NCBI GenBank assembly: GCA_021200315.1
Contig: JAJQGU010000073.1
Coordinates: 20,012-84,011, forward strand
Direction of reading: 5' to 3'
From: Akkermansiaceae bacterium
Lineage (GTDB): Bacteria > Verrucomicrobiota > Verrucomicrobiia > Verrucomicrobiales > Akkermansiaceae
Length of the DNA stretch: 64,000 bases
This document shows, piece after piece, positions 61,011-63,276 of the stretch. How positions within the stretch are numbered: position 1 is the stretch's first letter; each line of letters opens with the position of its first letter. The position numbers and the translations under genes were made by a program. The notes beneath the pieces are model-generated. The model made no database searches. It was not told the origin of the DNA and saw only the letters and a program-made list of their open reading frames with translations.

Positions 61011-61559
61011 TCATTTCTTCTCCGCGTTCAGCACGTGGGCGATCGCCTCCTTCTGGAGAGTGATCTCCAAGCCGCTGGCGATCTCGAGTCCGACTGTCGC
61101 GTCGCTCACTTTGCGGACGACGCCGTGGATGCCGGCGTTCGTGATCACCTTGCTGCCGACCTTGAGCGAGTTGATGCGGGCCTGCTGCTCCTTCTGCGCC
61201 TTGCGCTGGGGACGGATGAAGAGCATGTAGAGGATGATGAAGAGCAGCGCGAAAGTGATGAGACCGCTGTATTGTTCGTAGCCCGAGGGCTGCGGGGCGT
61301 CTCCCCTGGCCGGCCGGGCGGCGGCGCCCTGCGCGGACTCGGGCACGGGAGCCGGCGCGGTGCCGGTTTCCGCCAAATCCGCGGGCGCGGAGGCTCTCTC
61401 TGATGAATTCGCCGAGTCCAGGCTGGGGACGCCTGCCGTGGCGGCGCTTTGCTGCTGTTCGGGCTGCTGTTGTTCCGCGGGGGCGGCTTCCTGGGCGGCT
61501 GCGGGGAACGCGATTCCGAGCGCGATCGCGGCCGCGGCGAGATGACGGATTTTTTTCAT
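61011..61559 (-). CDS. yajC: Preprotein translocase subunit YajC
   Basis: 182 residues. The usual YajC core is in the second half: one membrane helix (LITFALLFIILYMLFIRPQRKAQKEQ) and a following small domain (LKVGSKVITNAGIHGVV, LEIASGLEITLQKEAI). It is preceded by an unusual N-terminal signal peptide (LAAAAIALGIAFPAAAQ) and a 70-residue Gln/Ala/Pro linker, so it is about 70 residues longer than E. coli YajC. ATGA overlap with tgt. It assists SecDF. Confidence 0.93.
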   Translation of the reverse strand: MKKIRHLAAAAIALGIAFPAAAQEAAPAEQQQPEQQQSAATAGVPSLDSANSSERASAPADLAETGTAPAPVPESAQGAAARPARGDAPQPSGYEQYSGLITFALLFIILYMLFIRPQRKAQKEQQARINSLKVGSKVITNAGIHGVVRKVSDATVGLEIASGLEITLQKEAIAHVLNAEKK

Positions 61560-62686
61560 GATATGTTGTTTGCTTGATATTGCGAGATGAAGGCGCCCTT
61601 GAAGGCGCCGAATTCGCCGGACTCGATCGCGCTTCTCGCCTGCGCCATCAGCCGGAGGTAGAAGGAAAGATTTTGGAATGAGAGGAGCCGCAGAGCCAGA
61701 ACCTCTCCCGCGCGGAAGAAATGCCGCACGGCCGCGCGCGGGAAGCGGGAGACGTGGGGCGGGGACGCGGGGTCGAGAGGCCGTGTGTCGAGTTCCCATT
61801 TCTTGTTCCTGATGTGGACGGGGCCGTCGGGGGTGAGCGCGATGCCGTGCCGGGCGAGGCGCGTGGGCATGACGCAGTCGAACATGTCGATGCCCCGTTC
61901 GATCATTTCGAGCATCTGGACGGGGGTGCCCAGTCCCATTGCGTAGCGGGGTTTGTCTTCCGGCAGCCACGGGACGGAGTTATCGATGGCCCGCAGCATT
62001 TCGCTTTCCGGTTCCCCCACGGAGACGCCGCCCACCGCATAGCCGTCGAAATCCATGGCGCGCAGTTCGAGAGCGCATTTTTTGCGCAGGTCGGCGTAGG
62101 CAGAGCCCTGCACGATGCCGAAGCGGCTCTGCGCACACGCGCCCGAGGCCGGCTTGTGCGCGTCCGCCCAGCCGCGGCAGCGCTCCGCCCAGCGCAGGGT
62201 GAGCCCGAGGGATTTCTCCGCGTAGTCCCGTCCGCAGGGATAGGGAGGGCACTCGTCGAAGAGCATGGCGATGTCGCTGCCCAGCAGAGCTTGAATTTCC
62301 ATCGATTTCTCGGGCGTGAGCAGCATGTGCGCGCCGTCGATGTGGTTCTGGAAGCGCACGCCCTCTTCGGTGATTTTGCGCAGCCGTGCGAGAGACCACA
62401 CCTGAAAGCCTCCGGAATCGGTGAGTATGGGGCCGTCCCATCCCGTCAGGGCGTGGAGGCCGCCCAGCGAGGCGATTTGTTCCGCGCCGGGGCGCAGGGA
62501 AAGATGATACGTGTTGCCGAGGATAATCTCCGCGCCGAGTTCGCGCAGTTCTTCCGGGTGGAGCGTTTTCACCGTGCCCTGCGTGCCCACGGGCATGAAA
62601 GCCGGTGTTTGGACGTCGCCGTGGGGCAGATGGAGCACGCCCCGCCGCGCTCCGCTCGGATCGGTCTGAAGAAGGGAGAAACTCAT
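61556..62686 (-). CDS. tgt: tRNA-guanine (queuine) transglycosylase lacking the zinc-binding site
   Basis: 376 residues. Exchanges G34 for preQ1 or queuine in GUN tRNAs. Catalytic parts are intact: TDSGGFQVWSL (general acid Asp), HIDGAH, AVGGVSVGEPE, GLGTPVQMLEMIERG and the nucleophile Asp in DMFDCVMPTR. The C-terminal zinc site is not: where E. coli has PLDPECDCYTC, this protein has PLDPASPPHVS, and the later zinc His (in TIHNL) is Gln (SFQNL). All four ligands are therefore replaced (S308, P310, S313, Q339). Length and the rest of the fold are normal. Middle gene of trmB-tgt-yajC, ATGA overlaps on both sides. Confidence 0.93.
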   Translation of the reverse strand: MSFSLLQTDPSGARRGVLHLPHGDVQTPAFMPVGTQGTVKTLHPEELRELGAEIILGNTYHLSLRPGAEQIASLGGLHALTGWDGPILTDSGGFQVWSLARLRKITEEGVRFQNHIDGAHMLLTPEKSMEIQALLGSDIAMLFDECPPYPCGRDYAEKSLGLTLRWAERCRGWADAHKPASGACAQSRFGIVQGSAYADLRKKCALELRAMDFDGYAVGGVSVGEPESEMLRAIDNSVPWLPEDKPRYAMGLGTPVQMLEMIERGIDMFDCVMPTRLARHGIALTPDGPVHIRNKKWELDTRPLDPASPPHVSRFPRAAVRHFFRAGEVLALRLLSFQNLSFYLRLMAQARSAIESGEFGAFKGAFISQYQANNIS

Positions 62687-63276
62687 GCCGCGTCAGCTTT
62701 CCGGAAGCGTGCGCGGAAGATTTCCCTCCCTTTCGCTTCCCATTGCCGTTGAAAGTCCGTTTTGGGGTAGAAAAAGGCGTCTTCGCTCCATTCGAGGCGG
62801 AGGAAGAGCCCGCTCCCCGCCATGCGCTCGTTCACCCATTCGAAATATTCCCGGTGATCCGTCTTGAAGAGAAACTCGCCGCCCGGCGCCAGAGCGCGGT
62901 GCAGCACGGGCGGAAAGTCGGCCTGCACCAGGCGTTTCTTGTGCTTCTTCTTTTTCGGCCAGGGATCGGGGAAAAGGTAGTGCAGACGGGTGATGAGGCC
63001 CGGTTTCAGGAACCATTCGAGAAAGTACCGGCTTTCGATCCGAAGCACCCGCACATTGCGGAGCCCCGCGCGCTCCGCCGCGCGGCACGCAATCTTCGCC
63101 CGCCCCTCCAGACGCTCCACCCCCAGGAACAGCCGCTCCGGATGGCGCCGCGCCATTGCGCTCAAAAACCCGCCCTCTCCGCAGCCCAAATCGACTTCGC
63201 ACACTTCGCCGTCCCCGAAAATTTCGGCGGCTGAATGCGTGCGGAAGTAGTCGTCTGGCACAAATGAGGCGTTCAT
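62683..63276 (-). CDS. trmB: tRNA (guanine-N7-)-methyltransferase
   Basis: 197 residues. Methylates G46 of tRNAs. SAM-binding motif EVDLGCGEGGFL, then LHYLFPDPWPKKKKHKKR, the family catalytic/RNA block, and FKTDHREYFEW. First gene of the unit trmB-tgt-yajC, all coupled by ATGA overlaps. Confidence 0.96.
   Translation of the reverse strand: MNASFVPDDYFRTHSAAEIFGDGEVCEVDLGCGEGGFLSAMARRHPERLFLGVERLEGRAKIACRAAERAGLRNVRVLRIESRYFLEWFLKPGLITRLHYLFPDPWPKKKKHKKRLVQADFPPVLHRALAPGGEFLFKTDHREYFEWVNERMAGSGLFLRLEWSEDAFFYPKTDFQRQWEAKGREIFRARFRKADAA

Follow-up and report, generated by a model that had tools for sequence, protein, structure and literature searches.

The zinc domain is treated as a hallmark of the tRNA guanosine(34) transglycosylase Tgt (PMC6165067; PMC4425180). 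In an Akkermansiaceae bacterium, the 64,000-nucleotide stretch of contig JAJQGU010000073.1 analysed here (the window) carries a tgt gene whose product has lost every canonical ligand of this domain. The locus raises the question of whether such a protein is a decayed enzyme, a metal protein with other ligands or a Tgt that works without zinc.

The tgt gene and its neighbourhood

The tgt gene (61556..62686, minus strand) is an intact open reading frame of 376 codons with an ATG start, and it is the sole Tgt of the genome. In profile searches the 376-aa protein scored 463.4 bits (cut-off 306.75) with the equivalog TIGR00430 over residues 7-373 and 495 bits with PF01702, which bears out the original prediction of an undamaged gene. 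Upstream, trmB (62683..63276, minus strand; TIGR00091, 126 bits) overlaps the start of tgt by 4 bases. Downstream lies yajC (61011..61328, minus strand; conserved part tested; TIGR00739, 82 bits), so that the tgt-then-yajC arrangement matches the E. coli order queA-tgt-yajC-secD. The window is located near one end of an 84-kb contig in a genome of 2.22 Mb and 98% completeness. For comparison, 76 genomes of the genus were available in the collection, and tblastn yielded named relatives from the Akkermansiaceae and Verrucomicrobiaceae; the genus itself is probably Akkermansia.

Some other Verrucomicrobiae genomes departed from the single intact copy. In the single-contig genome G217, tgt (L079, G217:C1:1782461-1783541) is split between two frames and is either a pseudogene or the product of a sequencing error. 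Three highly complete genomes (G036, G057 and G119), two of them 0.9-Mb genomes of family f7, gave no Tgt match.

Replacement of the zinc ligands

The canonical zinc ligands correspond to C302, C304, C307 and H333 of the E. coli enzyme, and none of the four is left in the window Tgt. The former CxCxxC zinc knot was located by alignment with relatives at residues 305-316 (DPASPPHVSRFP; 61739..61774, minus strand), within a region that reads RPLDPASPPHVSRFPRAA...SFQNL; residues 302-317 are R302-P-L-D-P-A-S-P-P-H-V-S-R-F-P-R317. The fourth ligand, a histidine, aligns with Q338 (codon 61673..61675, minus strand). Both P309 and P316 are private to the window among the 69 genus sequences compared.

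The knot loop of the window Tgt and its relatives is one residue shorter than that of E. coli, and the assignment of ligands to residues is ambiguous because the position of this gap is variable. The residues facing the cysteine ligands were S/P/S when the alignment was anchored on LDP and A/P/V when it was anchored on RF(S/P)RA, while two MAFFT alignments gave S/P/V or S/P/S. The original prediction had read the site as Ser-Pro-Pro-His-Val-Ser and Gln; these residues are present, and other assignments of them to columns are equally defensible. Its claim that all four ligands are replaced stood firm. None of these gap placements brings a cysteine or histidine to a ligand position or restores any ligand, and residues 298-345 contain no cysteine.

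Distribution of the loss

The canonical ligand set was absent in all 70 genus genomes with a readable site and in all 15 other members of the family. Q338 occurred in every readable genus site (70/70; 69/69 in the near-full-length set). The usual genus motif is RP(L/I)(D/H)xx(G/S)HPHV(T/A/N)RFSRA...FQNL; residue 305 is D in 57 members and H in 12. All members but the window, which has proline, keep H309 (69 of 70), and three relatives have Leu, Ser or Phe in place of H311. The other genera of the family mostly show C-E-S-S-H-P-H-V...HN. In the sister family the ligand set is incomplete in six of six members, five of which read D-T-H-P-L-C...HN and the sixth V for the last C. Judged from these sequences, ligand replacement in the lineage and its relatives is graded, advancing from partial to complete; the series runs from D/T-x-H-x-x-C...H through S/A-x-H-x-H-V...H and G/S-x-H-x-H-V...Q to the state of the window.

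In other parts of the class, the motifs of f3, f5, f9, f10, f12, f19 and f20 are mostly GLDNYTC...HN or NYTT...HN, and that of families f13/f21 is L-x-(A/P/C)-x-x-S...HN. Families f4, f6, f8, f11 and f14-f18 retain the CCCH set, as do those members of other classes that were sampled. When the zinc columns were removed before tree building, the non-CCCH sequences of the class fell into three or more separate clades, and no fewer than four changes were needed; the CCCH family f14 was placed inside the clade of the order with weak support (82). A clade-wide loss, envisaged in the original prediction, is thus seen in the genus, in the family and in several clades of the Verrucomicrobiae, and it stops short of the families that keep CCCH.

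Several genomes encode an additional Tgt that carries a long extension at its C-terminus (L213, L219, L221, L224, L225, L227 and L229-L232 in f5; L159 in f41). This additional copy keeps all four zinc ligands, and in most cases the other Tgt of the genome lacks them. In the two extensions scanned (L219 and L159), an MnmC2/MnmD-like methyltransferase domain (PF05430) was recognised, and that of L219 also matched NF033855 below its cut-off. Both halves of these two proteins are therefore of wobble-position tRNA enzymes.

A scan of named genomes, picked by similarity to the query so that its counts are not phylum-wide frequencies, extended the comparison to other phyla. All 13 sampled Bacteroidota Tgts (L278, L283, L284, L290-L292, L297, L305, L308, L311, L312, L318 and L319) were without the CxCxxC ligands; the ligand histidine was kept in 12 of them and was Asn in L290. 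The zinc site was missing in two of six Pseudomonadota, both of them Alphaproteobacteria, while all 25 Bacillota kept it. The premise of a near-universal site among bacterial Tgts has to be given up, because its loss is recurrent in separate clades, namely in all sampled Bacteroidota and in several clades of the Verrucomicrobiae. Given this repeated loss, zinc is probably less essential to Tgt than usually stated. A literature search, with subscription papers mostly outside its reach, returned no report of a zinc-less Tgt; database curators may already have an implicit record of the loss.

Active site, substrate and queuosine pathway

The catalytic Asp90 (Z. mobilis D102; 62417..62419, minus strand) and the catalytic nucleophile Asp270 (Z. 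mobilis D280; 61877..61879, minus strand) are invariant in 215 aligned sequences. The same holds for the equivalents of Z. mobilis D156, C158, Q203 and G230, so that, as originally claimed, the catalytic aspartates and the base-binding residues (Asp156, Gln203 and Gly230) are kept in the window Tgt. The assignment of this protein to Tgt, as made from its sequence, is one that rests on features other than the zinc site.

The base-pocket motif GGVSVGE (62012..62032, minus strand) retains Val223, the equivalent of Z. mobilis V233, which is conserved in 212 of the 215 sequences; together with C146 (Z. mobilis Cys158) it makes the pocket of the preQ1 type. Queuine-salvaging bacterial Tgts carry GG[LS][AS]G (PMC10723273), with Gly for Val233, and in human QTRT1 glycines at the pocket give queuine room (PMC6165067). 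As the retained valine excludes queuine, preQ1 is the likely substrate of the window Tgt. The VSVG variant had been taken as a possible hint at a change of substrate; this suggestion lapses with the finding that V at position 231 (170/215) and S at 232 (197/215) are the majority states of the phylum sample.

The genome provides the preQ1 synthesis genes queC, queD and queF as well as queA, all among those that the original prediction had proposed to check. The products of queA, queC, queF-II and queG scored above the NCBIfam cut-offs; that of queD passed Pfam and scored 67.4 against an NCBIfam cut-off of 89.25. QueH was absent from the genome. A Bacteroides control genome contained queA, queC, queF and queG. 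By eye, QueD keeps its HGH motif, with the metal-binding histidines apparently retained, and zinc use is therefore not visibly dropped from the whole queuosine pathway. With regard to a general zinc economy, S14 was found, and L36 was unrecognised by a simple motif scan of the stretch examined.

The median NG86 dN/dS over 472 genus pairs was 0.083, and the mean dN within the genus was 0.042 for the zinc subdomain vs 0.060 for the whole gene. The nearest pairs of the window had dS values of 0.8-0.9, dN of about 0.2 and a ratio of about 0.2, which is above the genus median and still purifying.

Predicted fold and dimer interface

AlphaFold2, run with 70 sequences, modelled the window Tgt with a pLDDT of 93.3 and a pTM of 0.92; the block means over residues 301-350, the zinc subdomain, were 95-98. 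The model superimposed on the solved Z. mobilis Tgt 1q2r_A with a Z of 54.1 and an rmsd of 1.2 Å over 371 residues and thus reproduced the Tgt fold. By this prediction the fold can accommodate the sequence; AlphaFold ignores metals, and its high confidence says nothing on metal-free stability.

The Z. mobilis residues Trp326, Tyr330 and His333 are turned towards the other subunit of the dimer (PMC5395182). Residues 319-323 of the window Tgt (AVRHF; 61718..61732, minus strand) carry a coupled change at this interface, Tyr330 to Ala and Leu334 to Phe in Z. mobilis numbering. The two replacements always come as a pair, in 56 members of the genus, among them the window; neither is found in the other 14, which have Tyr/Leu like almost all Verrucomicrobiota examined. 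The 56 counts are not independent events, and the pair may be one inherited double change. This distribution suggests a rebuilding of the interface in most of the genus, later than the loss of the zinc ligands, and it lends partial support to the altered subunit interface that had been proposed beside zinc independence.

Explanations for the loss of the zinc site

Evolved zinc independence appears to fit these observations best. The window most probably encodes an active, preQ1-inserting Tgt whose C-terminal subdomain has exchanged its structural zinc knot for a metal-free packing of the same fold. Such a protein would bind no zinc, would dimerise as a homodimer and would exchange guanine for preQ1 in GUN tRNAs. 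The loop deletion, the replacement of His by Gln and the Tyr330Ala and Leu334Phe changes would bring back the stability and the dimer/tRNA surface for which other Tgts rely on zinc. The Garcia group reportedly found in the 1990s that ligand mutations of the E. coli enzyme harm zinc binding and activity; compensation must therefore be assumed if zinc independence has evolved. H311 and D305, which remain near the old site, and the QueD score below the NCBIfam cut-off count against this reading. A wider proposal is offered tentatively, at less than even chances: the Tgt zinc site may be dispensable in evolution and have been lost many times, with the window lineage recording a stepwise path of ligand swaps, perhaps via a transient re-ligated C/D/H-x3-H-x-H site, towards metal-free packing and a rebuilt interface (Tyr330Ala/Leu334Phe). 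The lineage would then be a natural series for finding the role of zinc in Tgt. A persisting metal site of this kind, in which the relatives would bind metal via (C/D/H)305-x3-H309-x-H311 and H338 and the window would have a weakened or degenerate version, is unlikely. Its appeal lies in the other members of the family, where Cys305, His309, His311 and His338 co-occur (C305 with H309 in 11 of 15), in the sister family, where H and C may be assigned to the positions of C304 and C307 and H333 is kept, and in the genus, where residue 305 is of a metal-ligand type and H309 is nearly constant. However, H338 has become Gln throughout the genus, H311 is lost in the three relatives mentioned, and the window has also exchanged H309 for Pro, leaving D305, H311 and Q338; moreover, no such pattern accompanies the losses in Bacteroidota and the Opitutales-like clade.

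That the window tgt is a non-functional or decaying allele is quite improbable, in keeping with the original view that the gene is not in decay. The private changes P309 and P316, a score that is the lowest among the complete Tgts of the genus (494.6 bits) and the split tgt of the relative G217 would agree with decay. Yet the reading frames are intact across the genus, active-site residues and queuosine genes are present, the predicted fold is confident and dN/dS is low; the loss is also common to the whole genus and predates it. Still less credible is an altered substrate, queuine rather than preQ1, tied to VSVG. The replacement of L231 and A232 (Z. mobilis numbering) by V and S speaks for it; the frequency of both residues in the phylum sample, the retention of V233 and C158, the different motif of queuine users (PMC10723273) and the presence of preQ1 synthesis genes and QueA speak against it, and the idea was rejected. 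An equally slight chance is given to misalignment or assembly error. One gap does shift the ligand assignment and P309 is known from a single genome, but no cysteine occurs between residues 298 and 345, and Q338 and the missing cysteines recur in about 70 genomes.

Comparison with known systems

Should entire clades, among them all the Bacteroidota sampled, function without zinc, the metal would be a replaceable scaffold. What is assumed about the dimer interface from the Z. mobilis enzyme may then fail to apply in many gut bacteria; queuosine formation there would not need zinc at its tRNA-exchange step, QueD acting at an earlier one.

The window Tgt resembles the bacterial enzymes of Z. mobilis (1pud/1q2r) and E. 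coli (TIGR00430, PF01702) in its predicted fold, catalytic Asp pair, base pocket with the preQ1-type valine and adjoining yajC. It differs from them in the missing CxCxxC...H, the knot shortened by one residue and Tyr330Ala/Leu334Phe at the interface. The zinc-less Tgts of Bacteroidota and of Opitutales-like Verrucomicrobiota have likewise lost cysteine ligands, all three in the former and two or three in the latter, and kept the rest of the enzyme; unlike the window, nearly all of them retain the ligand histidine (H333). Since the replacing residues differ between clades, being G/S-x-S/A-x-x-D in most Bacteroidota and either LDNYTC or NYTT among the Opitutales-like sequences, the losses look independent. 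The zinc site does not delimit the Tgt family, as all sampled Bacteroidota Tgts are without it. Eukaryotic QTRT1 and the queuine-type Tgt of C. trachomatis share family and catalytic mechanism with the window Tgt; they are queuine users with Gly at the position of Val233, whereas the window keeps the valine, and QTRT1 keeps its zinc site (PMC6165067). A precedent among tRNA enzymes, unrelated to Tgt, is bacterial GluRS, whose zinc-binding motif is described as missing in many bacteria and dispensable (PMC4381286); the case was made there by experiment and is made here from sequence.
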